From IMG/VR virus record IMGVR_UViG_3300030385_000086, positions 1 to 27,405 of that record: a DNA stretch of 27,405 bases; one strand, given 5' to 3'. The position numbers were made by a program, and so were the translations under genes. The stretch comes from a virus. The notes under the pieces were generated by a model. It was not told where the DNA came from and did no database searches. It saw nothing but the letters and a program-made list of their open reading frames with translations. Of the stretch, positions 6,422 to 24,392 are shown in pieces (position 1 is the stretch's first letter; the number at the start of each line of letters is the position of its first letter).

Positions 6422-6451
6422 CAAATATATTAACTTAAAATCTATTATATA
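6422..6451 (+). promoter_or_regulatory. Bipartite late-promoter-like element, copy 1 (diverged)
   Basis: CAAATA at 6422-6427, 13 bases, then TCTATTATATACT from 6441. The downstream box differs from the other copies at its 3' end, and the start codon follows at 6454. Twelve upstream bases (AAAAATCAAATA) are shared with copy 2 at identical spacing. If it is a promoter, the mRNA would be nearly leaderless. Confidence 0.5.
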
Positions 6452-6453
6452 CT

Positions 6454-7167
6454 ATGCCATGTACTAAATGTGAAGAAGGAAAATACAAGTGGGGTAAAAC
6501 AGGAGAATGTGAATACGCCACTAAAGAAGATTGCGAATCAGCTAATCATAAATACAATAAGATGAAACCAACACCACTAGGAAAGAAGTCGTATGCAGAA
6601 TACGAGAAAGAATTAAAAGAATTTAATTTTAGCACAGTTTATAAGATAGATTTAGCTTCTATAAAAGATGTTGATAAATTTGTAGATGCTTTAAGTAATG
6701 AAACAGGTAAGGTAAGAGGTATTTTTGATGATTTAGACAATGAGATGTTTCAAAGAAGAAACAGAAGGGAAGAAGCAGAAGAACAATTACAAAATGCTGA
6801 AGATTACAAGTCAAATATAGAAGGCATGAAAAATGAAGTAGAATTAGCTAAAGGTAGATTAGAGAAAGCACAAGATGAGCTAAAAGATGACCAAGATGGT
6901 TTTAAAGAAGAAAATGATAAGTACAAAAAATTATTAGCAAAAGCAAAAGAAGCTGATAAAAAAGTAAAAGGGTTGCAAAAATCTTATATATCTTCTTCTA
7001 AAAAATTAGATGGTTCTATTTCTAAACTGAAAAAGGCTTATGCTGATTTGCAAAAAGCAGGAAAAGATTTAGGCGTTGGTAAAATTCCTGTTGATATGTA
7101 TGATATAGTATTAGATAGTGCTGATGAATTTGCAGGTGGTACATTACCCGCAGGATTTGATGATTAA
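6454..7167 (+). CDS. Coiled-coil virion-associated protein with Cys-rich N-terminus
   Basis: 237 residues. The N-terminus MPCTKCEEGKYKWGKTGECE plus YATKEDCESANHKYNKMKP has CxxC and further cysteines, suggesting a small metal-binding or disulfide module. I recall this head piece from other Bacteroidetes phages. Residues about 85-205 form a charged coiled coil. The last about 40 residues (DLQKAGKDLGVGKIPVDMYD) resemble the end of the next protein, the XkdF-like protease, suggesting paralogous C-terminal modules. Position between tape measure and protease suggests a head-assembly or internal virion protein. Function unknown. Confidence 0.6.
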   Translation: MPCTKCEEGKYKWGKTGECEYATKEDCESANHKYNKMKPTPLGKKSYAEYEKELKEFNFSTVYKIDLASIKDVDKFVDALSNETGKVRGIFDDLDNEMFQRRNRREEAEEQLQNAEDYKSNIEGMKNEVELAKGRLEKAQDELKDDQDGFKEENDKYKKLLAKAKEADKKVKGLQKSYISSSKKLDGSISKLKKAYADLQKAGKDLGVGKIPVDMYDIVLDSADEFAGGTLPAGFDD

Positions 7168-7183
7168 TAATTAGTAAATTAAT

Positions 7184-8188
7184 ATGAATACAAGAATAGT
7201 AGAATTAGTAATAGATGAAGATTCACAAGAATTAGCAATTGATGCTATTAGCTTAGTATCAGCACCTGCAATAGAACAGGACTTTGTTTTCTTTGGAAAA
7301 GAGAAAAACAATCTGACATTCGCAAAGGTAGATGAAGAAAAGCGTATGTTAGTTTCACCTGCCCTTATCCCGAACAAACAGATTTTCAGATATGATCCTA
7401 ACACGGATTCAGAATACTATGTTTACTTTAGTCCTGAAACAGTTAGAAAGGCATCTGAACTCTATTTAAAAAATAACAATCACCACAAAGCTACTCACGA
7501 ACACAACGAAAGAGTGTCAGGGGTTTTAACAGTTGAGAGTTGGATTATAGAAGATACTAAAAAAGACAAATCTACTCTTTACGGATTTTCACTTCCAAAA
7601 GGCACTTGGATGGTAAAAATGCGCATAGACAACCAAGACCTTTGGAATAAGATAAAATCAGGTGAACTAAAAGGCTTGAGTATAGAGGGGTACTTCACAG
7701 ATAAAATGGAGAAAATGGGCGAACAACAACCAACAACAGAAGAAATACTAAGTGCTTTAAATGAAATGATACAAAGCAAAACTGAACTAAAAGCTGAAAA
7801 GGTTGAGTTAACTCGTATGGGCGATTTAAGAAAAGCAGTAGATAAATTAAAAACCTATGATTTAGAAAAAGATTTATCTAGTCTTAGAAGTCAATATAAA
7901 GCTATTAATGGAGTTTTAACAAAATTAAAAACTCAATCTAAGACTTTTGTAAAAGATTATGGGAAATTTGAAGGACTAGCAGATAAACAATGGAAAGATT
8001 ATCAAGCAGCAAGTAAATTAAGTAATGAACTTGCAAAAGACCTTAACGAATTAGGTATGGACGGCGATTCTTTTACAAGAGAATATGACAATGCTTTAGC
8101 TGATGCTGAAACAATAGGTCAAGCAAGTTTTAAAGCTACACAAAGCGACTTTAAAAATTATAACGATATTGTAGACCTTAGCGAATAA
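7184..8188 (+). CDS. Prohead protease, XkdF-like
   Basis: 334 residues. The N-terminal about 180 residues fit the XkdF family (PBSX-type) of head maturation serine proteases: RIVELVIDEDSQELAIDAIS, then SAPAIEQDFVFF at 26-37, a His-containing segment ATHEHNERVSGVLTVESWII (His105 and His107), and KGLSIEGYF with candidate nucleophile Ser166. Known: these proteases cut scaffold and capsid precursors inside the procapsid. Residues about 185-334 add a helical coiled-coil tail similar to the end of the preceding protein, and could be a scaffold-like extension. It is followed by the acidic scaffold candidate and the major capsid gene, which is the expected context. Catalytic residues were chosen by pattern only. 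Confidence 0.85.
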   Translation: MNTRIVELVIDEDSQELAIDAISLVSAPAIEQDFVFFGKEKNNLTFAKVDEEKRMLVSPALIPNKQIFRYDPNTDSEYYVYFSPETVRKASELYLKNNNHHKATHEHNERVSGVLTVESWIIEDTKKDKSTLYGFSLPKGTWMVKMRIDNQDLWNKIKSGELKGLSIEGYFTDKMEKMGEQQPTTEEILSALNEMIQSKTELKAEKVELTRMGDLRKAVDKLKTYDLEKDLSSLRSQYKAINGVLTKLKTQSKTFVKDYGKFEGLADKQWKDYQAASKLSNELAKDLNELGMDGDSFTREYDNALADAETIGQASFKATQSDFKNYNDIVDLSE

Positions 8189-8199
8189 TATCTAAAAAT

Positions 8200-8233
8200 C
8201 AAATAAATAAATAACAATTCTATTATATAACAG
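8200..8233 (+). promoter_or_regulatory. Bipartite late-promoter-like element, copy 2
   Basis: CAAATA at 8200-8205, 13-base spacer, then TCTATTATATAACAG at 8219-8233, 17 bases before the ATG at 8251. Lies in the gap between protease and scaffold genes. The sequence from TTCTATT to AACAGAACCTA is shared with copy 3. Confidence 0.6.
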
Positions 8234-8250: not shown

Positions 8251-8916
8251 ATGGATATTAAAGAACAAATTTTAGTAGCACTTGGATTAAATAAAGATGA
8301 AGGTGTGAAATTAGCTTGGCAGGGCAAGAGCGAAGATGGAACTATTTTCGTATCTACTGCTGAAGAATTAGAAGCAGGTGTTGACATCAGCGTTTTAACT
8401 GAAGATGGCACTACGATCTTATTACCTGTTGGAACTTATAAAACAGAAGATGGGCTTTCTTTCAGAGTTGAAGAAGAAGGTATTGTTGCTGAAGTTATTG
8501 AATCAGAAACAGAAGAAGAAGAAACTACTGAAGAAGTTGAAGCAGCAGAAGATGATGGAAAAGAAGCAGACGTTGAGGACTGGGCAGGAATGGAGAAAAG
8601 AATCCAAAACTTAGAGGATGCTGTCGCTGACTTAAAAGAAGCTAAAGAAGGTGGTGATGATGAAGTTGAAGAAATGGCTGAAGAAGTAACTGAACCATCT
8701 AAAAACCCAAAAACAATAACTACAAAAGAAGTAGTAGAATTTTCAGTTGAAGAATTAAAAGCTGAGAATGAAAAACTTAAAGAGGAGTTAGCAAAAACAC
8801 CTGCTGATGCTCCAATTAACACAAATAAATTTAGTTCAGAAAGACCTGCACTAAACAGAAAAGAATACAATAAGTTATCTAAGCAAGAACGATTCTTGCA
8901 TAACTTAAATAAATAA
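8251..8916 (+). CDS. Scaffold protein candidate
   Basis: 221 residues, strongly acidic in the middle (a Glu-rich run at about 88-105, e.g. ESETEEEETTEEVEAAEDDG). It has two predicted coiled-coil stretches, near 112-145 and 170-185 (VEELKAENEKLKEELAK), and a basic C-terminus (LNRKEYNKLSKQERFLHNLN). An acidic helical protein with a basic capsid-binding tail lying between protease and major capsid gene is the standard picture of a tailed-phage scaffold. No enzymatic motif is visible. The call rests on composition and position. It is the first gene after promoter-like copy 2. Confidence 0.7.
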   Translation: MDIKEQILVALGLNKDEGVKLAWQGKSEDGTIFVSTAEELEAGVDISVLTEDGTTILLPVGTYKTEDGLSFRVEEEGIVAEVIESETEEEETTEEVEAAEDDGKEADVEDWAGMEKRIQNLEDAVADLKEAKEGGDDEVEEMAEEVTEPSKNPKTITTKEVVEFSVEELKAENEKLKEELAKTPADAPINTNKFSSERPALNRKEYNKLSKQERFLHNLNK

Positions 8917-8922
8917 TAATAA

Positions 8923-8940: not shown

Positions 8941-9864
8941 ATGGCGTTTACTACAACATCAAATTTCGCGGGGAAGGCAGCTGGATTCTACATTGCAGCC
9001 GCTTTAAAAGAAGCGAAATCATTAGACTACTTAACTATGATAGAGAATATCAAGTATAAGTCTAACATACAAAAAATGGCAGGAACAGGACTGGTTGTTG
9101 ATGCAAGTTGTGACTTTGGAGTGGAAGGAACACTTGCTCTTACTGAGAAGGTTTTAGAACCGAAAAATCTACAAATTAATTTAGATTTATGTAAATTGAC
9201 TCTCCTAGATTCTTGGGAAGCTTTACAAATGAGAGCAGGAGCAGGAGCACCACCACCTGCAAGTTTTGATGACTATGTAATTTCTTACATGGGTGAAATC
9301 ATAGCACAAGCAACTGAAGAAAGCGTTTGGTCAGGAGCAAGTGGAACAACAGGGGAATTTCAAGGCTTCTTAGGTACTAATGGATATTTAATGCCAACAG
9401 GTACTAATGCTGATACAACAGTAATTCAATCAGCAGCTTCAGGTGCTTATACAGCAGCTAACATCATAGCTAACTTACAAACTTTGACTACTGATATGGC
9501 TGGAAATATTCCTGCAATATTAGGAAAAGAAGATTTGCATATCTATATGAATAACAAAACTTATGGCTATTACATCTCAGCAGTATCTACTTTAGGGTAT
9601 GTTAATGCTTACAATATGAATGGTGACTATGAGCCAGTTTTTGAAGGATACAAAATCGCAGTTTGCCCAGGTCTGCTTGACAATCAAGTAGTAGCAGCAG
9701 AGAAGTCTAACTTATTTTATGGTACGGATTTACTTTCAGATGCGACTAGAATCCAGTTGATGGATATGGCAACTTTAGATGGAAGTGACAATATGCGTTT
9801 AGTAGCTAGATTCTCAGGAGGTGTTCAATCAGGAGTTGGTGCAGATATCGTAAGACAATCGTAA
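8941..9864 (+). CDS. Major capsid protein
   Basis: 307 residues, close to the length of a mature-size HK97-fold capsid protein. It follows protease and scaffold candidates and is followed by a strong terminator, as expected for the most abundant virion protein. Visible features are an Ala-rich N-terminus (MAFTTTSNFAGKAAGFYIAA), a spine-helix-like region with SFDDYVISYMGEIIAQATEE at about 108-127, and a C-terminal segment with NMRLVARFSGGVQSGVGADI. I recognise the overall pattern from capsid proteins of Bacteroidetes phages rather than from one motif. Start chosen because ATG 8941 has the strong A-rich leader and no alternative upstream. Confidence 0.85.
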   Translation: MAFTTTSNFAGKAAGFYIAAALKEAKSLDYLTMIENIKYKSNIQKMAGTGLVVDASCDFGVEGTLALTEKVLEPKNLQINLDLCKLTLLDSWEALQMRAGAGAPPPASFDDYVISYMGEIIAQATEESVWSGASGTTGEFQGFLGTNGYLMPTGTNADTTVIQSAASGAYTAANIIANLQTLTTDMAGNIPAILGKEDLHIYMNNKTYGYYISAVSTLGYVNAYNMNGDYEPVFEGYKIAVCPGLLDNQVVAAEKSNLFYGTDLLSDATRIQLMDMATLDGSDNMRLVARFSGGVQSGVGADIVRQS

Positions 9865-10542: not shown

Positions 10543-10570
10543 GGAGTGGCTTAGTGCCACTCTTTTCTTT
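10543..10570 (+). terminator. Rho-independent terminator 1 after tail-tube gene
   Basis: GAGTGGC (10544-10550), loop TTAGT, GCCACTC (10556-10562), then TTTTCTTT. A perfect 7-bp GC-rich stem followed by a T tract. Confidence 0.9.
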
Positions 10571-10573
10571 AGG

Positions 10574-10630
10574 CTTGGTAAGGGTGTCGCATTTTATATG
10601 TGTCTAGGGCAACCTAGCGTTTACCATAAG
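10574..10630 (+). ncRNA. Possible structured RNA between two terminators
   Basis: No reading frame is present here. The strand can fold as an outer stem GGTAA (10577-10581) with TTACC (10621-10625), extendable by CTT/AAG, an inner CGC/GCG pairing, and a terminal hairpin CTAGG-GCAA-CCTAG (10604-10617) with a GNRA-type tetraloop. It is bracketed by terminators at 10543-10570 and 10634-10660. It may be a small RNA, a processing site or a relic; only the foldability is seen. Confidence 0.35.
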
Positions 10631-10633
10631 ACT

Positions 10634-10660
10634 AAGGTAGTTTCGGCTACCTTTTTCTTT
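10634..10660 (+). terminator. Rho-independent terminator 2
   Basis: AAGGTAG (10634-10640), loop TTTCGG, CTACCTT (10647-10653), then TTTCTTT. A 7-bp perfect stem with T tract, 72 bases after the first terminator. Confidence 0.85.
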
Positions 10661-10664: not shown

Positions 10665-10698
10665 CAAATAAAAACAGCCTTTTTCTATTATATAACAG
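10665..10698 (+). promoter_or_regulatory. Bipartite late-promoter-like element, copy 3
   Basis: CAAATA at 10665-10670, 13-base spacer, then TCTATTATATAACAG at 10684-10698, 10 bases before the ATG at 10709. It lies just after terminator 2, exactly where a new transcript for the portal block would need to begin. This is the strongest positional argument that the element is a promoter. Confidence 0.65.
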
Positions 10699-10708: not shown

Positions 10709-11419
10709 ATGATACAAACAACTACTGCAACTCATTTTACAGCTTATATACAGACTGAGGACAATAGGATTGATACTTCTGTTCCTTCTAGTCAAATAAG
10801 ACACTTAGTTAAATTTACAAGTGATATGGATAAGTCTGTACAATATGCTTATGCTTCAACTGAAAAAATCTATAACAGATATACTTCATTATACTTTATC
10901 AGCAACCCTACACCCAATGTTTATTTGGGGAGGGTAAGTCTTTTACCTGCTGGATATTGGAAATATGAAGCCTATGAAGTAAGTTGGAATGAAACATCTT
11001 TTTTAATTGTTGCAGGTCAAGCCCCTTCAACAGAAAATGATATATTAGCACCTTCTGCAACTAACAAAGGTGTTGTGCAAGGATTAGTAACTAAAGGGAA
11101 GATGTATGTAACAGAAAAATCAGGAACTGAAGAAGTGCAATATACAGAAAATGCTAAAAGCGTACAAACTTTAACAATAGTATATGGTGGTGTTGGTTAT
11201 ACTTCCACCCCACTAATTACAATAACAGGAGATAACATTACTCCTGCAAAAGCAACCTGTACAGTTGTTGGTGGTGTTGTGACAACAGTAACTATAACAG
11301 ATGCAGGAAGTGGATATACACAAAACCCAACAGTTACCCTAACTACAGCAGGAGCTACTGTTGATGGGGCAAATATAGTAGCAAACATAAATGAAACAAA
11401 TTACATTTACACAGGATAA
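10709..11419 (+). CDS. Structural protein with inserted GYT-repeat domain
   Basis: 236 residues. The N-terminal about 150 residues (FTSDMDKSVQYAYAS, YNRYTSLYFISNPTPNVYLG, LLPAGYWKYEAYEVSWNE, then GKMYVTEKSGTEEVQYTENA) and the last residues NETNYIYTG look like one conserved small structural protein of Bacteroidetes phages. Between them, residues about 153-226 contain two motifs of the type G-x-G-Y-T-x-x-P-x-V/L-T-I/L-T (GGVGYTSTPLITITGDN and AGSGYTQNPTVTLTTAG), known from modular surface domains of phage proteins. It lies directly before the portal, so it is probably a head or head-tail protein. Exact role unknown. Confidence 0.6.
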   Translation: MIQTTTATHFTAYIQTEDNRIDTSVPSSQIRHLVKFTSDMDKSVQYAYASTEKIYNRYTSLYFISNPTPNVYLGRVSLLPAGYWKYEAYEVSWNETSFLIVAGQAPSTENDILAPSATNKGVVQGLVTKGKMYVTEKSGTEEVQYTENAKSVQTLTIVYGGVGYTSTPLITITGDNITPAKATCTVVGGVVTTVTITDAGSGYTQNPTVTLTTAGATVDGANIVANINETNYIYTG

Positions 11420-11422: not shown

Positions 11423-13279
11423 ATGAAAGATAATATAATCAGTATCAATTTGGAAACATCAACTGCCCCTGTAGTAACAGAGGTTAGAGGTAGGGATTGG
11501 ATAAGCTATGGAGATGCAAATGGAGAGTGGTCTAACTTATACCCTCAATTTTTAATTGACCTTTATTATTCAAGCAGTATATCTGCTGCTATTATTAATG
11601 CTACTGCTGATATGATAAACGGCAAAGACATTATAATAGATGATGAAGATGATAGAAAATTAGATGCTAGGGTTAGGCTTCAGCACTTTATGGATAGAGC
11701 CAATTGTAATGAAACCTTACATGAAGTATTAAAAAAGGTTTCTTTTGATTTTAAACTTCAAGGTGCTTATGCTCTTAATATCGTATGGAGTAAAGACAGG
11801 ACACAAATAGCTGAAATCTACCACATTCCTGTGGAGAAAATAAGAGTAGAAAAACCTGATGAACTAGGAAAGGTAAGGGGTTATTTTGTGTCTAATGATT
11901 GGACTAATACTAGAACCAACAAGCCGTACAGAGTACCTGCATTTAATGCTAATGATAGAACCTCAGCAAATCAAATACTTTACACAGGTCTTTACAGCCC
12001 TAATATGAACGCTTACTACACCCCTGATTACGTTTCTTGCAATAATTGGGCTTTAATAGATTCTAGGGTTTCTGAGTACCATTTAAACAACATCTCTAAT
12101 GGTTTTAGTGGGTCTTTCATGATCAGCTTTGCTAATGGAATCCCAACAGCCGAGGAGAGAATGCAGATAGAACAAAGCCTTACAGCTAAATTTACCTCTG
12201 AGAACAATGCTGGGAAATTCATATTGACCTTTTCAGATGATAAAACTAGAGTTCCTGAGATAACACCAATAAGCCCCGCAGATTTAGATAAGCAGTATTT
12301 AGCACTCCAAGAAATGCTGACCTCTAACATCATGTCAGGACACAGGGTGACATCTCCGATGCTTATGGGAATTAAGAACGACACAGGGCTTGGAAACAAC
12401 GCTGACGAGCTTAATAGTGCTGCGAATTTTTATCTAAATTCTGTAATAATGCCCTACCAGTCGCAAATCATCAAAACTTTAAGTAAGATATTTAAGATTA
12501 ATGACATGGATATGCCTGTTAGTTTTGTACAATTAAAACCAATTACTTTAGAATTTACTTCTGAGGATTTGAAAGGGATTTTAACGGAATCTGAGTTGAG
12601 GTCAGAAATGGGGTTGCCACCTTTAGATGTAGAAGTAAGAGAGGATTTTTCAAGTGAGAAAACAGAATTGGATAAATTTATTGAAGAATATGGTGAAGAT
12701 ATGCCTGACCATTGGGAGCTTATTGAAGAAGAAATAGTAGATGGTGAACACCAAGATTTTGATTTTGAAGAAGTGTTAAATGATGTGGCTAGTGAAAAGA
12801 CAGAGTTAGCTTCAACAGGAAGCCCTAAGCCTGGAAGGAAATCTGAGCAAGATGGAATATCTAAAAAGACTTCTGATTATTTTAGGGTAAGATATGTTTA
12901 TGAAAAGGATAACTTCTTAACTAACAAATCAGGAACTAAAAGAAAATTTTGCAGACAAATGATGGGAGCTAATAAGCTGTACAGAAAAGAGGATATTATT
13001 AATATGGGTAAGAAAGCAGTTAACCCTGGCTTTGGCATTAAGGGGGCTAACACCTACTCAATATGGCTTTACAAGGGGGGTCCACAATGCTTCCATTTTT
13101 GGACTAGAAGAATCTTTAAGACTGTAATAGGTGAATCTAAGACTACTAAAATAGAAGATGCTGATTTAATCGGTTACACTAAGGCAAGGTCAGAAGGATT
13201 CACAGCAAAGAAGAATGACAAATTGGTAGCAATACCACCAAGAAAAATGAAAAATAACGGATACGATAAACCAAGATAA
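11423..13279 (+). CDS. Portal protein with C-terminal extra module
   Basis: 618 residues. The first about 440 read as a portal: an N-terminal DWISYGDANGEWSNLYPQFL, a clip/stem-like middle (FDFKLQGAYALNIVWSKDRT and YHIPVEKIRVEKPDELGKVR), then a helical stretch SNIMSGHRVTSPMLMGIKND and NADELNSAANFYLNSVIMPY, and the C-terminal SELRSEMGLPPLD. After an acidic linker (about 410-460) comes a separate module (YFRVRYVYEKDNFL, RKFCRQMMGANKLYRKEDI, NPGFGIKGANTYSIWLYKGG, CFHFWTRRIF) known to me as a domain found fused to or next to head proteins in flavobacterial phages. Known role: DNA channel at the capsid vertex. The module's role is unknown. Confidence 0.85.
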   Translation: MKDNIISINLETSTAPVVTEVRGRDWISYGDANGEWSNLYPQFLIDLYYSSSISAAIINATADMINGKDIIIDDEDDRKLDARVRLQHFMDRANCNETLHEVLKKVSFDFKLQGAYALNIVWSKDRTQIAEIYHIPVEKIRVEKPDELGKVRGYFVSNDWTNTRTNKPYRVPAFNANDRTSANQILYTGLYSPNMNAYYTPDYVSCNNWALIDSRVSEYHLNNISNGFSGSFMISFANGIPTAEERMQIEQSLTAKFTSENNAGKFILTFSDDKTRVPEITPISPADLDKQYLALQEMLTSNIMSGHRVTSPMLMGIKNDTGLGNNADELNSAANFYLNSVIMPYQSQIIKTLSKIFKINDMDMPVSFVQLKPITLEFTSEDLKGILTESELRSEMGLPPLDVEVREDFSSEKTELDKFIEEYGEDMPDHWELIEEEIVDGEHQDFDFEEVLNDVASEKTELASTGSPKPGRKSEQDGISKKTSDYFRVRYVYEKDNFLTNKSGTKRKFCRQMMGANKLYRKEDIINMGKKAVNPGFGIKGANTYSIWLYKGGPQCFHFWTRRIFKTVIGESKTTKIEDADLIGYTKARSEGFTAKKNDKLVAIPPRKMKNNGYDKPR

Positions 13280-14602: not shown

Positions 14603-14604
14603 TC

Positions 14605-14790: not shown

Positions 14791-14812
14791 ATACAGATTA
14801 AAGCCACATGAA

Positions 14813-15573: not shown

Positions 15574-15744
15574 CCCCTCTCAGCCGTTTTAGGCACTTTC
15601 ACATCTTTTTAACCCCTATATACTAGACAGCACCTAAAGTTGCTTATCTAGTCAAAACACTATTAACACTTAAATTGTTAATAACTTTGTAAGTAATTCT
15701 GTTAATATCTATTTTATCTTTATATATTTGTTCCATATTAACTA
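15574..15744 (+). promoter_or_regulatory. Early control region
   Basis: 171 bases without a gene, before the early block. Two inverted repeats are visible: CTAGA-C-AGCA (15623-15632) against TGCT-TA-TCTAG (15641-15651), and TTAAC (15663-15667) against GTTAA (15677-15681). GTTAATA occurs twice, 24 bases apart (15677 and 15701). Two matches to the Bacteroidetes -7 consensus TAnnTTTG are present: TAACTTTG at 15682-15689 and TATATTTG at 15723-15730; the second has only a weak upstream partner (CTG at 15699, 21-base spacer). Probably the host-read early promoter with operator-like sites; no repressor gene was recognised. Confidence 0.5.
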
Positions 15745-15987: not shown

Positions 15988-15988
15988 T

Positions 15989-16994: not shown

Positions 16995-17008
16995 ATAAAT
17001 AAAAAATT

Positions 17009-17332: not shown

Positions 17333-17333
17333 G

Positions 17334-17843
17334 ATGATAGAAGCAATTAATTTTAAAATCTTATGTGATCTTACTACAAATTTAGTAGGGTTGGGTAAGG
17401 GTTCTCTTGCTTATAAAAGCCGAAAGCAAAAATATCAAGTGCCTAGAGCTGTTGCAAGTGTAGTTGCTAGGATGGTAGATGAAACCCATAGAGCTACAAT
17501 AGCCAAAGAACTTAAAAGAGATAGAAGCTTAGTGTATCATTATGAGAAAATGCATGAATCTAATTACAGGTCATTTCCTAAATATCGTGAAATTTTTAAT
17601 CAGGTTTATAATGCTTATAGCAACCTACAAGGAGCTAAGAGAACTTTCGTAGATGAACGAGAATTAGAAATATATTTAAGAGATAATGGAGTTAAAAGTA
17701 GCAAGAAACATCAAACTACAATTAGAGTTACATCAGGAAGATTTGAAACTGATATTAAAGTTTCTTACAAAGACTTCTACAACCAATTAGAAAAGTGTAA
17801 GTTTGTTCTCACAGATTGCAACTACAACTTAGAAATTATTTAA
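17334..17843 (+). CDS. DnaA domain IV-like DNA-binding protein
   Basis: 169 residues from ATG 17334; the frame is open further upstream but only overlaps the SSB-like gene. Residues about 29-72 (RKQKYQVPRAVASVVARMVD, then IAKELKRDRSLVYHYEKM) follow the layout of the C-terminal DNA-binding domain of DnaA: P-R-x-x-A near the start of one helix and RDRSLVYHY where DnaA has the signature RDHTTVLHA. No AAA+ ATPase domain is present. It stands directly before the initiator gene, with TAATG overlap. Likely role: recognition of an origin or recruitment of host replication proteins. Alternative: a transcription regulator. Confidence 0.55.
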   Translation: MIEAINFKILCDLTTNLVGLGKGSLAYKSRKQKYQVPRAVASVVARMVDETHRATIAKELKRDRSLVYHYEKMHESNYRSFPKYREIFNQVYNAYSNLQGAKRTFVDERELEIYLRDNGVKSSKKHQTTIRVTSGRFETDIKVSYKDFYNQLEKCKFVLTDCNYNLEII

Positions 17844-18448
17844 TGACAAAACCAAATTACTATGCTGTTATTCCTGCTGAGGTAAGGTACAATAAAAAGC
17901 TCACCCCAAATGCCAAACTTCTTTATGCCGAAATAACAGCACTATGTAATATGAATGGTAAATGTACAGCTTCAACTCAATACTTCTGCAATCTTTATGA
18001 AGTTAGTAAAGTATCAATACAAAAATGGTTAAAGATTTTAGAGGATCATAACTATATTAAGCGTATTAACATTTATAAACTAGGTAGTAAACAAATAGAA
18101 GCAAGGGTGATAACTTTGGTTAATATGCCTAGTAAAGAAAAGTTTACAGATAATACTAATATAAATATAACTAATACTAATCTTACAGATAGTAATAAAA
18201 AGGCGAGCTTTAAAAAACCAAAATTAAATGAAGTTAAAGATTATTGTATCTTACGGAAAAATAATATAGATGCTGAAGCTTTTATTGACTTCTATGAAAG
18301 CAAGGGGTGGCAAATTGGAAAGGAAACAATGAAGGATTGGAAAGCTTGTGTAAGAACTTGGGAGCGTAGAGAAACAAAGAAACCACAAACAATGAGTAAA
18401 ATTGACAGTCAATTAAACGAATACTTAAAAGGTAAAGAATATTTATGA
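17843..18448 (+). CDS. Replication initiator protein
   Basis: 201 residues from ATG 17843 (TAATG overlap with the preceding stop). N-terminal winged helix, about 8-80: YYAVIPAEVRYNKKLTPNAK, then a helix-turn-helix ending VSIQKWLKILEDHNYIKR. This is the replisome-organiser type domain of phage initiators. A polar Asn/Thr linker (about 98-125) follows. The C-terminal part (KLNEVKDYCILRKNNIDAEA, FIDFYESKGWQIGKETMKDW) is the module I associate with recruiting the helicase loader or helicase in Bacteroidetes phage initiators. Known parallel: lambda O, with origin repeats inside its linker. No phage helicase is recognised, so host DnaB is presumably recruited. Confidence 0.75.
   Translation: MTKPNYYAVIPAEVRYNKKLTPNAKLLYAEITALCNMNGKCTASTQYFCNLYEVSKVSIQKWLKILEDHNYIKRINIYKLGSKQIEARVITLVNMPSKEKFTDNTNINITNTNLTDSNKKASFKKPKLNEVKDYCILRKNNIDAEAFIDFYESKGWQIGKETMKDWKACVRTWERRETKKPQTMSKIDSQLNEYLKGKEYL
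18144..18191 (+). repeat. Iteron-like repeats in initiator linker, candidate origin
   Basis: Within the AT-rich linker of the initiator gene TTACAGATA occurs at 18144-18152 and 18183-18191, and TAATACTAAT at 18151-18160 and 18172-18181, 21 bases apart (two helical turns). Placement matches the lambda origin inside gene O. They could also be chance repeats in codons for Asn, Thr and Ile. Confidence 0.4.
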
Positions 18449-18624
18449 CTTCAGAACAATTATTTAAAAACCTTTTATCAAATTTACACGATTTGCAAGA
18501 TGATGTTATATGCCCTAGAGATGTCTTAGATGATTTAGGAGATGATTTAGATTTATATGTAGATATAGAAGTAGAGAAAAGGTTAGATGAATTAGATGAT
18601 ACAATTAAAGAAATAAAATTATGA
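18445..18624 (+). CDS. Small acidic protein
   Basis: 59 residues (MTSEQLFKNLLSNLHDLQDD ...), about one third Asp or Glu, helical looking. The gene fills the space between initiator and next gene exactly, overlapping both by ATGA (18445-18448 and 18621-18624). That tight fit is strong evidence for a real gene. Function unknown; the acidity would suit a DNA mimic or a partner of a basic protein, which is speculation. Confidence 0.65.
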   Translation: MTSEQLFKNLLSNLHDLQDDVICPRDVLDDLGDDLDLYVDIEVEKRLDELDDTIKEIKL

Positions 18625-18992
18625 AACCATTAAAACAAGAAAACTTTGAAGAGTTGAAAAAAAAGGTTTATGACCTTTTAAACGAAACAAAAATAGAGAT
18701 AGGACATAATACTGATGGAAAAACTTTAGCCAGTTTAACTAGAATATTTACCAAAGATTTAATAAGAGAAAAACGATTTGGAGATATGACTTTTAATCAA
18801 GTTCAAGATGCTTTTAAAGTTGCAGTAAGATTTGGAAAAGATGAACCATTTTTAAATATTAGAACTTTTTATAAATGGATATGGGCTCATAAAAAAGAAC
18901 GTATTGACGTTGCAACACACCAAGTAGAAACATTAAAAGAAAATCCTAAAGATGTTTTATATTATCAAGAACCAATTAAACTGCTCAAATGA
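18621..18992 (+). CDS. Hypothetical replication-region protein
   Basis: 123 residues. Mostly helical, with LTRIFTKDLIREKRFGDMTF-NQVQDAFKVAVRFG and a segment FLNIRTFYKWIWAHKKER. I have seen this layout (a helical domain ending in 'NIRTFYKWI') beside initiators in Bacteroidetes phages and suspect a helicase loader or primase-associated role, but no ATPase or catalytic motif is visible. Overlaps both neighbours by 4 bases. Confidence 0.6.
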   Translation: MKPLKQENFEELKKKVYDLLNETKIEIGHNTDGKTLASLTRIFTKDLIREKRFGDMTFNQVQDAFKVAVRFGKDEPFLNIRTFYKWIWAHKKERIDVATHQVETLKENPKDVLYYQEPIKLLK

Positions 18993-19594
18993 AGATATTA
19001 AATTTATATGCAGGAATTGGTGGTAATAGGCACTTGTGGGGTGAAGATCATCAAATAACGGCAGTAGAGATTAATTCAGAAATTGCTTCTGTTTATAAAA
19101 GTAAATTTCCTAATGACAATGTAATAGTTGCAGATGCTCATTCTTACTTATTGGAACACTACAAAGAGTTTGATTTTATATGGAGTAGCCCCCCCTGCCC
19201 CTCCCATAGTAAATTATGTTATAGCCTAAAGCAAAAAAAATATATTGATGTAGCCTTATATCAACAAATTATCTTACTTAAATCTTGGTTTAAGGGTAAG
19301 TGGGTAATTGAGAATGTTGTCCCTTATTATGAATACCTAGTAGAGCCTTCTTTCATAATAGGTAGGCATCCATTTTGGAGTAATTTTAATGTACCTACTT
19401 TAGAGGTGAAAAATATAGATATATCAAGGAGCAATGTTAAGGAATTATCAGAATATCTAGGAATCCCTGAACCAAAATATGGAGCAAGATTAGCTTTAAG
19501 GAATTGTGTTGAGCCAAAAACAGGTTTACATATTTTAAATTGTGCACAAGGAATTATTAAAGAAAACAATGTACAACAAAACAAATTATTTTAA
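18989..19594 (+). CDS. Short DNA cytosine-5 methyltransferase
   Basis: 201 residues. Motif I LYAGIGG (6-12) binds S-adenosylmethionine, motif IV SSPPCPSHS carries the catalytic Cys70, and motif VI is VIENV with Glu108. These define a C5 cytosine methyltransferase. At about 200 residues it is much shorter than the usual 300-400, with only a reduced target recognition part (about 115-175, ISRSNVKELSEYLGIPEPKY) before a C-terminal R-L-A-L-R-N-C segment. No restriction enzyme gene is adjacent, so it is a solitary phage enzyme. Probably protects phage DNA from host restriction or marks it. Overlaps the previous gene by 4 bases. Confidence 0.88.
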   Translation: MKILNLYAGIGGNRHLWGEDHQITAVEINSEIASVYKSKFPNDNVIVADAHSYLLEHYKEFDFIWSSPPCPSHSKLCYSLKQKKYIDVALYQQIILLKSWFKGKWVIENVVPYYEYLVEPSFIIGRHPFWSNFNVPTLEVKNIDISRSNVKELSEYLGIPEPKYGARLALRNCVEPKTGLHILNCAQGIIKENNVQQNKLF

Positions 19595-19595
19595 A

Positions 19596-19907
19596 ATGAA
19601 AACAAAAGAAGTTGTAAGAGAATTACTAACTATTAAGCCTCATTTAAGAGATAATGACAATATGTTAATAGCTGCTTATTGGTGGAGAGAATTAAAGAGA
19701 AAAGAAATTGATCCTAACAAAATGAATGGCTTAGAGTTCATGCAAATGTTTGCTAACAACAAACTGACTAACATAAAGACTATTGAAAGAATGAGGCGAA
19801 AATTACAAGAAGAATGTCCTGAGTTAAGGGGCAGGGCTTATGAATTAAGAAAAGGGAAAATACAAGATAAATGGAAAGAAGATTTGGGTTATGCTAAAAA
19901 CAATTAG
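19596..19907 (+). CDS. Hypothetical protein next to NinG
   Basis: 103 residues from ATG 19596, one base after the methyltransferase stop; the frame is open upstream but only inside that gene. Sequence MKTKEVVRELLTIKPHLRDN-DNMLIAAYWWREL and a basic C-terminal helix (IKTIERMRRKLQEECPELRG) are recalled from other Bacteroidetes phages, where it often lies beside nuclease genes. Likely helical and nucleic-acid associated. No function known. Its 3' end overlaps the NinG gene by 17 bases. Confidence 0.65.
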   Translation: MKTKEVVRELLTIKPHLRDNDNMLIAAYWWRELKRKEIDPNKMNGLEFMQMFANNKLTNIKTIERMRRKLQEECPELRGRAYELRKGKIQDKWKEDLGYAKNN

Positions 19908-20298
19908 CAAATTAAAAAAAGAACTTGACAAATGGTTTAGTCTTTTCATAAGACTTAGAGATGCTGATGATTTGGGCTTTGTAAAGTGCTTTACATCAGG
20001 ACGTTACTATCACTATAAGAATATTCATGCAGGTCATTTTATCTCTAGGACAGCTCACCCAACTAGGTGGGATGAGGTTAATGTACAACCACAGTCAGTA
20101 GCAGATAATCTTTTTGGTCAAGGGGAGCAATACAAGTTTGGAAGGGAATTAGATTTACAATATGGCGAAGGAACTGCTGAGGGTTTACAACAAAAAGCTA
20201 GGGAAATACAAAAGTTTTCAAGAGTTGATTATGAAGAAAAGATAAGTTATTACAAATCGGCTGTTGAAAAGTTGAAAAAAGAAAAGGGAATAGAGTAA
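19891..20298 (+). CDS. ninG: NinG/Rap-like nuclease with lost zinc cysteines
   Basis: 135 residues. KLKKELDKWFSLFIRLRDAD, VKCFTSGRYYHYKNIHAGHF and TRWDEVNVQPQ-x-x-x-x-NLFGQGEQYKFG align with NinG of lambda, a Holliday-junction-cutting HNH-type protein. The core His in HAGHF (His46 and His49) and Asn73 remain. But where the family has CxTC and QCxxCN, this protein has C-F-T-S (Cys33, Ser36) and Q-S-V-A-D-N (Ser69, Asp72), so three of the four expected zinc ligands are missing. Either it belongs to a cysteine-poor branch or it has altered activity. Role: recombination or resolution during replication. Confidence 0.7.
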   Translation: MLKTISKLKKELDKWFSLFIRLRDADDLGFVKCFTSGRYYHYKNIHAGHFISRTAHPTRWDEVNVQPQSVADNLFGQGEQYKFGRELDLQYGEGTAEGLQQKAREIQKFSRVDYEEKISYYKSAVEKLKKEKGIE

Positions 20299-20307
20299 CT
20301 TTTTTTT

Positions 20308-20315
20308 TATCTTTG
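20308..20315 (+). promoter_or_regulatory. Possible host-type -7 box
   Basis: TATCTTTG matches the Bacteroidetes -7 consensus TAnnTTTG and stands 4 bases before the ATG at 20320, after a T-rich tract. No TTG -33 element is found at the usual distance, so this is a weak candidate for a promoter of the block with the sigma-like gene; a transcript from it would be almost leaderless. Confidence 0.4.
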
Positions 20316-20319
20316 GCGT

Positions 20320-20676
20320 ATGCATAAGCCGATTTATTCAAGTGAAGAACATAGAACAATAATTGAGGTTTATAGTTCCACGTGCAAACAGTTCACACAA
20401 GAAATCACAACCCAAAGTAGGTATAATAATTACCTTGAAGTAGTAGATTTGATAGTGGAATACTCAAACGGGTACGGCTCAGGATTAAAAGAAAACAATT
20501 TTTATGATTGGATAATGATAATACCAATAAACCTTTCAGTTGCAACAAGTGGATTTTTTGCAGGAATAGAAACTAAAAGCAACTCTGCAGTAGTAAGGGC
20601 TTATAGGGTGGTACTGGATCAGCTTCTTGAAGAAACAGTAAGCAGGCTAGATGAATTAGACCCAACTAATGACTGA
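20320..20676 (+). CDS. Hypothetical protein
   Basis: 118 residues (MHKPIYSSEEHRTIIEVYSS ...). Mixed composition, mainly helical, with one moderately hydrophobic stretch (IMIIPINLSVATSGFFAG, about 65-82) that is not a clear membrane segment. No motif is recognised. It is the first gene after a possible promoter and overlaps the sigma-like gene by 8 bases, so the two are probably co-expressed. Confidence 0.55.
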   Translation: MHKPIYSSEEHRTIIEVYSSTCKQFTQEITTQSRYNNYLEVVDLIVEYSNGYGSGLKENNFYDWIMIIPINLSVATSGFFAGIETKSNSAVVRAYRVVLDQLLEETVSRLDELDPTND

Positions 20677-21223
20677 GATATATTTAGAAATATCTAAGCT
20701 GACAGATAAGTTCAGGACAATGGCTTATGGTTTAACAACTGATGAAAATAAAATAAATGAATCGGTGCAGGAATTGATGTTATATTTTCTGAGTATGAAC
20801 CCAACCACACTTTCTGCTATTTGGGAAAAGGATGGAATAGATGGAGTTACAAGATATGGAGCAGTTGCCCTAAGAAGGGCGTTAACAAGCACAAGAAGTA
20901 ATTTTTATTATAAGTATGAAAAGTATTATACTAATTTATATGGAGTCAATATGACCCATACTTCTCCAGATAATTTTCATAGAAGTATTTATAATATGCC
21001 GAATGAAGAAGTAGATAATACTCAATTAGACAAATTAGAATCTATTGATTTACAGCTTGACAAGTTAAATTGGTACGATAGGGAGTTATTCAAACTCTAT
21101 TACTATGAAGGGAATACACTAGACTCACTGGCTGCTAAGACTAGGATAAGTCGCAACAGCTTATTTACTACAATAGATAAGGTAAGAGAGATACTTAAAA
21201 AAGAATTAAATGAAGATGTATAA
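20669..21223 (+). CDS. Sigma-70-like RNA polymerase factor
   Basis: 184 residues. The N-terminal part (LTDKFRTMAYGLTTDENKIN-ESVQELMLYFL, about 11-41) recalls sigma region 2.1, with the usual acidic/Gln helix. The C-terminal part (DKLNWYDRELFKLYYYEGNT-LDSLAAKTRISRNSLFTTID, about 131-170) reads as region 4: a 'DRELFKLYY' helix followed by a helix-turn-helix. Regions are weakly conserved and no region 3 is present, as in ECF or phage sigma-like factors. Such genes are recurrent in Bacteroidetes phages. It is a candidate to direct host polymerase to the repeated bipartite element before virion genes (inference). Confidence 0.6.
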   Translation: MTEIYLEISKLTDKFRTMAYGLTTDENKINESVQELMLYFLSMNPTTLSAIWEKDGIDGVTRYGAVALRRALTSTRSNFYYKYEKYYTNLYGVNMTHTSPDNFHRSIYNMPNEEVDNTQLDKLESIDLQLDKLNWYDRELFKLYYYEGNTLDSLAAKTRISRNSLFTTIDKVREILKKELNEDV

Positions 21224-21290
21224 CCCTAAAATAAATGATAGCTTCTTTATGCAATTTGGATTTAGGCATCCTAATTGGAAACGAAAATGA
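21210..21290 (+). CDS. 26-residue hypothetical peptide
   Basis: MKMYNPKINDSFFMQFGFRH plus PNWKRK. The gene bridges the space between the sigma-like gene (overlap 14 bases) and the next gene (ATGA overlap at 21287-21290). The fit suggests it is translated, perhaps to couple its neighbours. A second ATG two codons in is an alternative start. No function can be given. Confidence 0.4.
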   Translation: MKMYNPKINDSFFMQFGFRHPNWKRK

Positions 21291-21688
21291 ATAAGTTTTT
21301 TGTGCCCAATGAAGTCTATGATGAAAGGATAGCAATATGCAAGGAGTGTATTTACTATTTCAAGCCAACAGGAAACTGTAAGCGGTGTTTATGTTTCATG
21401 AAGATAAAGGCAAGACTGGCTCCTATGGAATGCCCTCAAAAGTATTGGGAAAAGACTACTGAGGTGACGGCTCCTGATGATTTGCCTCAGCACTTGATAG
21501 ATGAAATACTAGGTATTTGGAAAGACTTAAAAACAGGTAGAGCAAAAGATGTGGTAGCTAAAAAGAAAATGATAGAACTTTATAACACAATACACATGAC
21601 TAACTATGGAGTCGGCACTAATTGTGGTTCTTGTATATCTACTTGCTTTGATGGAATAAAAAAACTATATAAAAAATACAGCGAATGA
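21287..21688 (+). CDS. Zinc-binding protein with CxxC clusters
   Basis: 133 residues from ATG 21287, the first ATG of the frame. Residues about 10-53 form a cysteine-rich module: RIAICKECIYYFKPTGNCKR-CLCFMKIKARLAPMECPQKYW, in the order CxxC, CxxCxC, CP. I recall this treble-clef-like module from flavobacterial phage proteins. A second part carries NCGSCISTCFDGIKKLY near the C-terminus, a further CxxC/C set. Likely binds zinc and perhaps nucleic acid; role unknown. Overlaps its neighbours by 4 bases each. Confidence 0.65.
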   Translation: MNKFFVPNEVYDERIAICKECIYYFKPTGNCKRCLCFMKIKARLAPMECPQKYWEKTTEVTAPDDLPQHLIDEILGIWKDLKTGRAKDVVAKKKMIELYNTIHMTNYGVGTNCGSCISTCFDGIKKLYKKYSE

Positions 21689-21900
21689 GTTATTTAACAC
21701 ACTTAAAAAGAAACAAGATGCACTATTCAAGCAGATGGGTAGTAAAATATGATGATGATGATTTAATAAAAGAGGTCAAGCTCATATACTCCCCTGAAGA
21801 ATATAGGGCGTTTAAAAAACCAAGAACACTAAACACACAAGAGGGTTTAATTAAAATACTAGAAAATGACAAAGAAAGAAGATTACAAATCAAATCCTGA
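21685..21900 (+). CDS. Small hypothetical protein
   Basis: 71 residues (MSYLTHLKRNKMHYSSRWVV ...), basic, with an Asp run (DDDD, about 23-26). ATGA overlap with the preceding gene, and its end overlaps the DUF3310 gene by 35 bases in another frame. No motif is recognised. Confidence 0.5.
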   Translation: MSYLTHLKRNKMHYSSRWVVKYDDDDLIKEVKLIYSPEEYRAFKKPRTLNTQEGLIKILENDKERRLQIKS

Positions 21901-22129
21901 GCCACACTATTACACAGGAAAGAAGTACGGCTACTCAGCAAGATGTGTAGTGGAAGATTTTGATCTAAGTTATAATTGTGGTACGGCTGTATCATATTTG
22001 CTTAGAGCAGGGAAAAAAGATGGCAACCCTGCCGAGCAAGATATACAAAAGGCAATTAACCATTTACATTTTGAATTAGATAAGCTATATAAAAAGAATG
22101 ATATTAAAACAGGGGGACTAGCACAATGA
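21866..22129 (+). CDS. DUF3310 protein
   Basis: 87 residues. The sequence HYYTGKKYGYSARCVVEDFD-LSYNCGTAVSYLLRAGKKDG-NPAEQDIQKAINHLHFELDK follows DUF3310, with the conserved H-Y start, the 'f-x-L-s-y-N-x-G-x-A-v-x-Y-l-x-R-a-G-x-K' core and the 'D-x-x-K-A-x-x-h-L' helix. Known: small phage proteins of this family are predicted nucleotide-kinase-like or nucleotide-binding proteins; the T7-type gene 1.7 relatives phosphorylate dTMP/dGMP. An activity here is inferred only from family. Overlaps the next gene by 4 bases. Confidence 0.75.
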   Translation: MTKKEDYKSNPEPHYYTGKKYGYSARCVVEDFDLSYNCGTAVSYLLRAGKKDGNPAEQDIQKAINHLHFELDKLYKKNDIKTGGLAQ

Positions 22130-22377
22130 CACTATACAAATGCAAATGTGGAAAGACTAAAGAAATAAGTAGGGCTACAATAGGGCTTAGGGATGGCGAA
22201 TGGGTAACTGTTCAAGCCCTATGTGATTGTAGTCTTTATATGGATAGTGAACCTGAAGAAGGAATGCCTACATTAATAAGAACTGAAGAATCACTAAGCA
22301 AGAAAGGTGATAAACTTTGGGATAGTGCTAAAGAAAAACTAATAGGTGAAAGGGGTGTCAACGAATCCTTTGATTAA
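22126..22377 (+). CDS. Zinc-ribbon hypothetical protein
   Basis: 83 residues. YKCKCGKTKEISRATIGLRD-GEWVTVQALCDC shows two CxC pairs typical of a zinc ribbon, followed by a conserved-looking MDSEPEEGMPTLIRTEESLS. I recall this protein as widespread in flavobacterial phages beside NinB or DUF3310. Function unknown; nucleic-acid binding is possible. Its stop overlaps the NinB-like start by one base. Confidence 0.65.
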   Translation: MTLYKCKCGKTKEISRATIGLRDGEWVTVQALCDCSLYMDSEPEEGMPTLIRTEESLSKKGDKLWDSAKEKLIGERGVNESFD

Positions 22378-22760
22378 TGAACTTTGTAATAAAGAACAGC
22401 CAAGATAAACAAATGCTTTTTAGTTATTTAAAAGAACTTGATAGTGATTACATAGTAAGCGTAAAGAAACAAAGAAACAATAGAAGCAATATGCAGAACA
22501 ATTATTATTGGGCTTGTATAGTACAACCATTAGCAAATGAGCTAGGATATTTCCCTGATGAATTACATGATACTCTAAAGGTTAAGTTCGCAAGTGAATG
22601 GCAAAGCATAGAGATAAACGAAAAGCAGATAGGACTACAAACAGTAAACAGCACAGCAAGAATGAATACAAAAGAGTTTGAGATATATGCAGATCAAATA
22701 AGGATATGGGCTTTAAGTGAACTAGGGATAAGATTAATGATGCCAAATGAATTCAAGTGA
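22377..22760 (+). CDS. NinB-like recombination protein
   Basis: 127 residues. The segment SVKKQRNNRSNMQNNYYWAC-IVQPLANELGYFPDELHDTL corresponds to the NinB/Orf pattern (K-x-x-R-S-x-x-Q-N-x-x-Y-W). In lambda, NinB binds single-stranded DNA and SSB and helps RecA-type or annealing recombination. Its presence together with NinG, an annealing-like protein and the SSB-like protein gives a small recombination set. The C-terminus contains the first half of promoter-like copy 4 (CAAATG at 22744). Confidence 0.65.
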   Translation: MNFVIKNSQDKQMLFSYLKELDSDYIVSVKKQRNNRSNMQNNYYWACIVQPLANELGYFPDELHDTLKVKFASEWQSIEINEKQIGLQTVNSTARMNTKEFEIYADQIRIWALSELGIRLMMPNEFK

Positions 22761-22776
22761 TTTCTATTATATAACA
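22744..22776 (+). promoter_or_regulatory. Bipartite late-promoter-like element, copy 4
   Basis: CAAATG at 22744-22749 (inside the end of the NinB-like gene), 13-base spacer, then TCTATTATATAACA at 22763-22776, 28 bases before the ATG of the small terminase at 22805. It marks the junction of the early/middle block with the packaging and tail block. Confidence 0.6.
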
Positions 22777-22804: not shown

Positions 22805-23062
22805 ATGACACATGGAGGAAAAAGAATAGGGGCGGGGCGTAAGGCAAAGGCAGAAGAACAAAAGCTAATAGAGAATCTGACACCTATGAATACAATGGCT
22901 TTAGAATCATTACAAAAAGGATTAGAAAAGAAAGAACAATGGGCGGTTAAGTTATTCTTTGAATACTTCTATGGCAGGCCACAACAAAGGGTAGATGTTA
23001 CTTCAAATGAAGAAAGCCTTAATATGCCACTTATAACATTCATAGAAACTGATACTGAGTAA
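22805..23062 (+). CDS. Small terminase subunit candidate
   Basis: 85 residues. It starts THGGKRIGAGRKAKAEEQKL, the G-G-x-R-x-G-A-G-R pattern common at the N-terminus of phage small terminase subunits, followed by helices (LTPMNTMALESLQKGLEKKE) and FFEYFYGRPQQRVDVTSNEE. Short for the family, which is usually 120 residues or more. It directly precedes and overlaps the large subunit gene. Known role: DNA recognition and regulation of packaging. Confidence 0.75.
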   Translation: MTHGGKRIGAGRKAKAEEQKLIENLTPMNTMALESLQKGLEKKEQWAVKLFFEYFYGRPQQRVDVTSNEESLNMPLITFIETDTE

Positions 23063-24251
23063 TAAATATAATCCCTTATTTGAATCTGACTGCCGATACT
23101 TTATTGTAACTGGTGGCAGGGGTTCAGGCAAGTCTTTTGCTGTTACAGTCTTTCTAACGCTACTAACTATGAGCGAAGGAATCAGAATACTCTTTACAAG
23201 ATATACTATGACTTCAGCACGGCTTTCAATAATACCTGAGTTTTTAGAAAAGATAAGTCTATTAGGATATGATGAAGTCTTTAGTGTAAATAAATCTGAA
23301 GTAGTAAACCTAAAGAACAAGTCTGATATTATATTTAGAGGCATAAAGACATCAGCAGGAAATCAGACAGCCAGCCTTAAATCACTAACTGGAGTATCTA
23401 ACTGGATTTTAGATGAAGCTGAAGAACTTATTGATGAAGATATATTTGATACTATTGATTTAAGCATTAGAGAAAAGAATATACAGAATAGAATTATATT
23501 AGTCTTGAATCCTGTTACTAAAGATAATTGGATATATAAAAGATTCTTTGAAGGTAAAGGAATTGAAGCTGGTTTTAATGGCGTTAAAGACAATGTATGC
23601 TATATACATAGTACATACCTAGACAATAAAGATAATCTCTCACAGAGCTTCCTAGAGCGTGTAGAAGCTATAAAGCATAATAACTTCAAGAAGTACAAAC
23701 AAAAATTGCTCGGACAATGGTTAGAGCGTGCAGAGGGTGTCGTTTTTGAGTCTTGGTCAATAGGAGAATTTAATCCTGATGATTTACAGGTTTCTTGTGG
23801 TCTTGATTTTGGCTTCTCAATAGACCCTGACTCTTTAACTTCTGTTGCTATTGATAAGAAGCATAAAAAGATATATCTTAAAGAAGAAATTTATCGTAAT
23901 GGTTTAAAGAGCCATGAACTTGCCACAATCATTTTAGATAAAGTAGCAGATACTCTTTGCATTGCTGACAGCTCTGAACCAAGGCTAATTGCAGACTTAA
24001 AGCATTTAGGCGTAAACATTAAACCTGTAAAGAAAGGAACTATTGAAAGTGGAATAACTAGAATGCAAGATTATCATTTAGTAGTAACTCCTGAAAGCAC
24101 TAACATAGCTAAAGAACTGAATAACTATGCATATCAGGACAAGGGCAGCAAATTATACATTGACAATTACAACCATGCAATAGATGGGGTGAGGTATAAT
24201 GTTATATATCATTTAGACAATCCAAATGCAGGTAAGTATTTTGTACAATAA
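23055..24251 (+). CDS. terL: Large terminase subunit (non-ATG start)
   Basis: 398 residues if begun at CTG 23055. The frame holds no ATG before residue 39, yet the Walker A motif GGRGSGKS (20-27) lies upstream of that ATG, so the true start must be non-ATG (CTG 23055, ATA 23052 or CTG 23049) or reached by coupling from the small subunit gene, whose end it overlaps. Beginning at CTG gives (M)SNKYNPLFESDCRYFIVTGG, a typical N-terminus. Walker B ILDEAEE (118-124), then nuclease acids Asp251 (GLDFGF), Asp305 (CIADSSEP) and Asp377 (NHAIDGVRYN). It packages DNA into the head and cuts it. Family certain, start uncertain. Confidence 0.92.
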   Translation: MSNKYNPLFESDCRYFIVTGGRGSGKSFAVTVFLTLLTMSEGIRILFTRYTMTSARLSIIPEFLEKISLLGYDEVFSVNKSEVVNLKNKSDIIFRGIKTSAGNQTASLKSLTGVSNWILDEAEELIDEDIFDTIDLSIREKNIQNRIILVLNPVTKDNWIYKRFFEGKGIEAGFNGVKDNVCYIHSTYLDNKDNLSQSFLERVEAIKHNNFKKYKQKLLGQWLERAEGVVFESWSIGEFNPDDLQVSCGLDFGFSIDPDSLTSVAIDKKHKKIYLKEEIYRNGLKSHELATIILDKVADTLCIADSSEPRLIADLKHLGVNIKPVKKGTIESGITRMQDYHLVVTPESTNIAKELNNYAYQDKGSKLYIDNYNHAIDGVRYNVIYHLDNPNAGKYFVQ

Positions 24252-24254
24252 AAA

Positions 24255-24300
24255 CCCCCTGCCATAGTTTTACGACAAATAAAATAGAATGGGCAGAGGG
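24255..24300 (+). other. Hairpin after terminase gene
   Basis: CCCCCTGCC (24255-24263) can pair with GGGCAGAGGG (24291-24300): CTGCC/GGCAG plus CCC/GGG across one mismatch, with a loop of about 28 bases. It has no T tract, so it is not a typical terminator, but it may stop, stabilise or process the mRNA before the tail block. The 142-base gap 24252-24393 otherwise holds only promoter-like copy 5 and no credible gene. Confidence 0.4.
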
Positions 24301-24358
24301 TAATTAAAACTAAAATGAATCAAACGACTGGCAAATATAAACTAATTATTTAAAGAGT

Positions 24359-24392
24359 AAACTAAATTACTAACTTTTCTATTATATAACAG
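24359..24392 (+). promoter_or_regulatory. Bipartite late-promoter-like element, copy 5
   Basis: AAACTA at 24359-24364 (4 of 6 match to CAAATA), 13-base spacer, then TCTATTATATAACAG at 24378-24392, one base before the ATG at 24394. Downstream box exact, upstream box weaker. If a promoter, it would give a leaderless transcript or one starting in the first codon. Confidence 0.55.

Follow-up and report, generated by a model that had tools for sequence, protein, structure and literature searches.

Putative late promoters and a predicted ECF-like sigma factor in a family of marine Bacteroidota-type phages

Introduction

The usual layout of promoters recognised by ECF sigma factors is AAC-N17-CGT. 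In flavobacteria, ECF promoters have been described as motif SM6, which has a CGT box at -10 (PMC9723704). Among phages, Salmonella phage 7-11 has the sigma factor SaPh711_gp47 and the bipartite late promoter GTAAtg-16-aCTA, and its early genes depend on the host sigma-70 (PMC8948821); the word leaderless is absent from the text of that paper. The late promoters of phage T4 (gp55/gp33/gp45) consist of a TATAAATA element only and need the sliding clamp (PMC2988020). Phage sigma factors with their own late promoters are thus known as a kind, and as far as found they are new for phages of the Bacteroidota, a phylum that lacks Shine-Dalgarno sites (PMC6847099) and in which leaderless mRNAs are rare (5.5% in Flavobacterium psychrophilum; PMC9723704). 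In open-access text, no description of late promoters of flavobacterial phages was found, the promoters of P12024S and P12024L and the role of their sigma factor included, and the sequence of the element analysed here occurred in no relevant paper.

Window and relatives

The analysed stretch of DNA (the window) comprises 27,405 nucleotides, positions 1 to 27,405 of the virus record IMGVR_UViG_3300030385_000086. The 79 bases at its start are repeated at its end, which makes a circular and complete map probable. Relatives were collected from IMG/VR by means of the capsid-like protein (80 taken; at least 595 exist) and represent a large family of abundant, mostly uncultured marine phages. From the same source a set of 26 near-complete relatives (27-32 kb) was assembled, of which 14 were found via the sigma factor described below and 12 were chosen by the capsid gene only; 20 of the 26 were mapped against the window's proteins. 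A nucleotide search of a phage collection with the window gave no match. Judged by the capsid gene (28%), its closest relatives in culture are the Nonlabens (Persicivirga) phages P12024S and P12024L, and we infer the host of the window phage from P12024S only. Genome contigs as a source of host information yielded two phage contigs only, in MAGs labelled 'Euryarchaeota' and 'Pseudooceanicola', which are probably misbinned.

Five copies of a bipartite element

An earlier note on this sequence had described a bipartite element, CAAAT(A/G) and TCTATTATATA separated by 13 bases, with copies at positions 6422, 8200, 10665, 22744 and 24359. All five copies were recovered, all of them on the + strand and all with the 13-base gap; the reported four of six upstream matches in copy 5 also proved correct, and the AAACTAAA found there is the rule in the family. 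In 100 dinucleotide shuffles of the window the motif occurred 0.07 times on average and once at most. A position weight matrix built from 20 relatives, with the window left out, returned exactly the same five window sites at a threshold of at least 20 bits and none on the - strand, and 20 Markov-resampled windows contained no site at this threshold. Chance is thereby excluded as an explanation of the five copies. The trailing 'AAC' that had been counted as part of the element lies outside it, the family consensus after TCTATTATATA being N-(T/C)-(A/G).

Each copy is a predicted late promoter on the + strand. The first (6422..6454) has a -35-like CAAATATA and a -10-like CTATTATA, and its predicted transcription start (+1) at 6454 falls on the first letter of the start codon (ATG) of gene 6454-7167, which would make this mRNA leaderless. 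Copy 2 (8200..8232; +1 at 8232) precedes gene 8251-8916 in the scaffold position and the capsid-like gene 8941-9864. Copy 3 (10665..10697; +1 at 10697) is followed by gene 10709-11419 and the portal gene 11423-13279; the two terminators that had been noted before it appear as terminator-like hairpins on the + strand (10543..10653, comprising 10543-10563 and 10634-10653), which isolate the copy 3 unit. Copy 4 (22744..22776; +1 at 22776), which shares its -35 part with the 3' end of the NinB-like gene 22377-22760, stands before gene 22805-23062 in the small-terminase position and the large terminase gene. Copy 5 (24359..24391; +1 at 24391) has the variant -35 box AAACTAAA and precedes gene 24394-24996 and then the tail block. 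The blocks behind the copies thus cover protease-like, scaffold-position, capsid-like, portal, terminase and tail genes. They support the label 'virion and packaging' genes as far as the blocks headed are concerned; the genes directly behind copies 1, 2, 4 and 5 have themselves no confident functional match. As had been stated, the early region (13840-22740) contains no copy.

Conservation in related phages

A motif search in related phages, which had been suggested as a check, located the copies of the 20 mapped genomes at matching gene borders, namely before genes 6454, 8251 and 10709, the terminase unit and gene 24394, at orthologous sites co-directional with the genes. All 26 near-complete relatives contained 3-6 coding-strand copies each, and the same pattern read backwards was found in none of them. 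Likewise, CAAAT-N14-TCTATTATATA had 98 gene-strand matches in the 80 capsid-selected loci versus 0 on the opposite strand. The proteins near the sites in the 20 mapped genomes are on average identical at only about 46-82%, and despite this divergence TCTATTATATA is almost unchanged. The upstream box of copy 5, AAACTAAA, is conserved at that site across the relatives. At copy 4 the usual upstream box in relatives is CAAATGAA, which shares bases with the end of the NinB-like gene, and the site persists with AAAACAAA or TAAATAAA where that gene is not directly upstream; selection thus acts on the element itself. Several near-identical copies within one genome would also be expected of operators, packaging or replication sites, or a dispersed repeat family. 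Such an origin is highly improbable given the strict gene orientation, the presence of one copy per late block and none in the early block, a placement at gene borders that holds even with a different upstream gene, and the lack of a palindrome.

Weak antisense copies were seen inside gene 10709 in several relatives, with far lower scores (16.9 bits at the highest), and may reflect coding conservation.

Anatomy of the putative promoters and predicted start site

Anchored on TCTATTATATA, the profile reads (T)CAAATAAA(T), spacer, (T)(T)TCTATTATATA, any base, T/C, A/G. The gap between the boxes is identical at 85 sites, one base longer at 2, and in the 4-base register of AAATAAATAAA at 14; the same count on the opposite strand gave 0 sites. 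Most sites have T/C in column 12 and A/G in column 13, also at a distance from an ATG, and these two columns look like the pyrimidine-purine pattern of an initiation site. With +1 set at column 13, the -10 box falls at about -12 to -5 and the -35 box at about -32 to -25, the spacing becomes AA(A/C)-N16-CTATTA, and the core of the -10 box is CTATTATA rather than the TATATAAC of the earlier register.

The predicted +1 coincides with the A of the ATG at copy 1 in 17/20 genomes, and the conserved start of the gene product, MPC..C, supports the chosen ATG. Since the initiator bases at this ATG occupy the fixed columns, a leaderless mRNA is predicted there; what had been entered as a caveat thus turns out to be a conserved, if predicted, feature of copy 1. 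Copy 5, which had also been described as abutting its start codon, misses it by 3 bases. The predicted leaders of the other copies measure 3 to 29 bases in the window genome, and at the other sites across the relatives 0 to about 40 bases. By site class, the distance from TCT to ATG amounts to 13, 23-41, 13-26, about 41-55 and 13-23 bases. This variable distance, combined with the rigid inner spacing, favours a promoter over a ribosome site. That the element is instead a translation-initiation signal, either a leader or an A-rich ribosome site, could be suspected from the adjoining ATG of copy 1 in most relatives and from the reported lack of Shine-Dalgarno sites in Bacteroidota. We nevertheless regard this as very unlikely, because apart from the varying ATG distance the element is missing from most late genes and its upstream box, downstream box and Y-R column correspond to a promoter layout.

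A predicted ECF-like sigma factor encoded in the early block

The early block contains a predicted gene for an ECF-like sigma factor (20669..21223, + strand; 184 aa) with a sigma2-like domain (residues 1-80), a flexible linker (about 88-114) and a sigma4-like domain (115-184). The gene is present in 26/26 near-complete relatives (63-81% identical). The least biased counts of its co-occurrence with the motif come from the relatives selected by capsid only (12/12) and from contigs of at least 25 kb for which the DNA motif was the only search criterion, of which 13/16 encode the sigma factor; the three others have one degenerate copy each and no AAATAAA. Within one virus family such co-occurrence is partly shared descent, and the independent comparison is essentially one of two clades.

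At the sequence level the matches are weak. Pfam detected sigma region 4 with an E value of 0.0023 (18 bits versus a gathering threshold of 25.7 bits), and did not find region 2; among 60 members of the sigma family the best region 4 match was 2e-4, and 16/60 had E<=0.01. PHROG profiles gave weak matches to regulator and sigma families, and tblastn of the sigma factor against named phages gave none. A PDB sequence-profile search returned chance matches only and no sigma factor, so that a fold comparison was needed. The AlphaFold model (60 relatives; pLDDT 79, pTM 0.46) consists of helices at residues 2-85 and 118-179 with a low-confidence linker between them; the pTM of only 0.46 is attributable to two domains on a flexible linker. 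In Foldseek the top ranks were held by ECF sigma factors (6dv9, E 8.9e-4), including Mycobacterium tuberculosis SigL, Escherichia coli sigmaE, AlgU and SigW. Residues 115-182 fit region 4 of sigmaE on -35 DNA (2h27; Z 9.9, rmsd 2.7) and residues 1-80 fit SigR (1h3l; Z 8.7, rmsd 1.9), and as one rigid body the two domains superpose poorly (rmsd about 16-20). The predicted model thus combines sigma2 and sigma4 without sigma3, the arrangement of ECF (group IV) factors. Given the Pfam score below gathering, the lack of a PDB profile match and the low pTM, the sigma assignment rests on fold and synteny.

It is proposed that this protein recognises the five promoters. The late-promoter reading of the earlier note is supported, and the likely recognising factor had been missed there. 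The boxes of the window family read AA(A/C)-N16-CTA, beside the AAC (-35) and CGT (-10) of ECF promoters; the -10 CTATTATA is without the typical CGT. The protein might alternatively be an HTH activator, with the late promoters read by a host sigma factor (sigma-A or a host ECF). Consistent with this, its PHROG matches include phrog_36, a 'transcriptional regulator' (E 1.7e-5), and a Q-like family as well as sigma, and its Pfam match covers region 4 only. This alternative is unlikely, however, as both domains of the AlphaFold model, one sigma2-like and one sigma4-like, match structures of ECF factors, the homologue in P12024S is annotated as Sigma-70 region 2, and the motif has -35 and -10 parts unlike TTG/TAnnTTTG.

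The P12024S clade

This homologue, P12024S_33, lies shortly before the terminase gene, at the same map position as the sigma gene of the window, and is related to the latter over region 2 (E 3.4e-4). In P12024S the element AAACAAA-N14-CGTTAATA, with AAAACAAA as -35 and CGTTAATA as -10 box, recurs before 7 late genes; this element is repeated in the relatives L325-L330 and contains AAC-N17-CGT. The ATG follows exactly 12 bases past the C of the -10 box at 14/19 sites collected from this clade and at 6/7 sites of P12024S itself, where leaderless mRNAs are accordingly predicted; the offset equals that of copy 1 in the window. Between the two clades sigma factor and promoter have diverged together, with map position and geometry retained. 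Start-codon-abutting motifs were also sought farther afield, in contigs that carry sigma relatives of 22-41%, and nothing convincing was found, so the trait is claimed for two clades only.

Early genes and the proposed transcription programme

The five copies had been described as distinct from the host TTG/TAnnTTTG type, and indeed none of them contains a TAnnTTTG box. The gap that precedes the early operon (15497-15744) contains such a box in 21/21 genomes, in the window as the host-type -7 box TAACTTTG (15682..15689, + strand). The full TTG-N17-21-TAnnTTTG is present in this gap in 14/21 genomes, the window not among them, and has no match anywhere on the window's + strand. A scan of the window for E. 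coli-type sigma-70 promoters showed no excess (37 versus 37.4 in shuffles). The boxes in the early gap fit a programme in which host sigma-A would act early and the phage sigma factor late.

The motif, its positions, directionality, rigid spacing and conservation, the predicted sigma fold and the co-occurrence are established by the data above. Very probably, to judge from sequence and structure model, the five elements are late promoters of a Bacteroidota-type phage read by the phage's own ECF-like sigma factor. Promoter activity, recognition by the product of 20669-21223, late timing and the exact start site belong to the model that we infer, in which the host sigma-A holoenzyme would first read the early genes, including the sigma gene, from TAnnTTTG-type promoters, and the phage sigma factor, once made, would switch on the five late blocks. 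Host RNA polymerase with the phage sigma factor would bind CAAATAAA or AAACTAAA as -35 and CTATTATA as -10, and transcription would start 12 bases past the C of the -10 box, which at copy 1 would place it on the A of the ATG and yield a leaderless mRNA.

The evidence leans towards a wider statement, that marine Bacteroidota phages use an ECF-like sigma factor with late promoters fused to start codons, that some late genes are translated from leaderless mRNA which only the phage holoenzyme makes, and that a single short sequence thereby determines where transcription and translation begin. If true, this would apply to most late genes with such promoters in the P12024S clade. The model provides a testable transcription programme for a large uncultured marine phage family, and P12024S/L on Nonlabens offer a cultured relative. 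Promoters fused to the start codon allow a direct test of leaderless translation in Bacteroidota, and the sigma-promoter pair that diverged in parallel between the clades can serve studies of ECF specificity and, as an orthogonal part, gene expression in Bacteroidota.

Comparison with known systems

What is new here is the occurrence in this phylum, a pairing that is conserved in two clades, and promoters fused to the start codon. With T4, the window family shares a sigma-family phage protein, an AT-rich -10 box and late genes as targets, but it keeps a second box at fixed spacing instead of the single -10 octamer TATAAATA. The two-domain sigma2-sigma4 fold resembles cellular ECF (group IV) factors, as does the AAC-N17-CGT in the P12024S-clade promoter; in the window family, however, CTATTA replaces CGT, the setting is a phage and not a stress regulon, and no anti-sigma gene came to notice beside the window's sigma gene. 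P12024S and P12024L are alike in having the sigma gene before the terminase and analogous ATG-abutting promoters, and differ in their -10 CGTTAATA and -35 AAAACAAA.

A directional motif before late blocks only and an encoded sigma-family protein would place the window phage with 7-11 and phiEco32. Like phiEco32 gp36, it would employ a phage sigma factor on host core RNA polymerase with one motif before late blocks; phiEco32, however, has the single-element middle/late promoter tAATGTAtA and a gp36 without region 4, whereas the window has a rigid -35 box and a sigma4 domain. With 7-11 it shares, in the proposed model, a small phage sigma factor with region 4, a bipartite promoter before late genes and early genes read with the host's sigma factor; motif and host phylum are different. 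Between 7-11 and phiEco32 the positions are conserved while motif and sigma factor diverge (PMC8948821), which parallels the relation of the window family to P12024S.

The open frame of the large terminase, which lies behind copy 4 of the putative late promoter and downstream of the gene in small-terminase position (22805-23062), reaches 41 codons further upstream in the window than its first ATG (23046-23168), and the Walker A motif GGRGSGKS falls inside this extension. None of the codons ATG, GTG and TTG occurs in these 41 codons of the window, and a CTG codon is located close to the beginning of the extension in all 18 genomes examined, the window counted among them. Judging from sequence, the large terminase is likely translated from a CTG start or by a +1 frameshift out of the upstream gene.

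A weaker antisense version of the late promoter element, CAAATAC...TCTATCATAAA, was observed in a relative genome (G016:14481-14510, minus strand), with equivalents in several relatives. It recurs there at a single position, separated from the copy 3 promoter (10665..10697, plus strand in the window) by approximately 190 bases and lying within the orthologue of gene 10709-11419, and may reflect either conservation of the coding sequence or weak promoter activity on the antisense strand.

The window ends (1-79 and 27327-27405) are identical over 79 bases, and the corresponding identical ends of relatives comprise 77, 99 or 123 bases; these are probably overlaps left by the assembly of a circular map, not terminal repeats of biological origin. 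In the genome collection, two MAGs bearing the labels Euryarchaeota and Pseudooceanicola contained contigs of the phage family, L331 and L332 (29.0 and 36.1 kb), a placement that probably represents misbinning.

The gap preceding the early operon (15497-15744) is a probable early promoter region by its sequence: it carries TAnnTTTG boxes of the host type in 21 of 21 genomes, and the full TTG-spaced host-type promoter in 14 of them.
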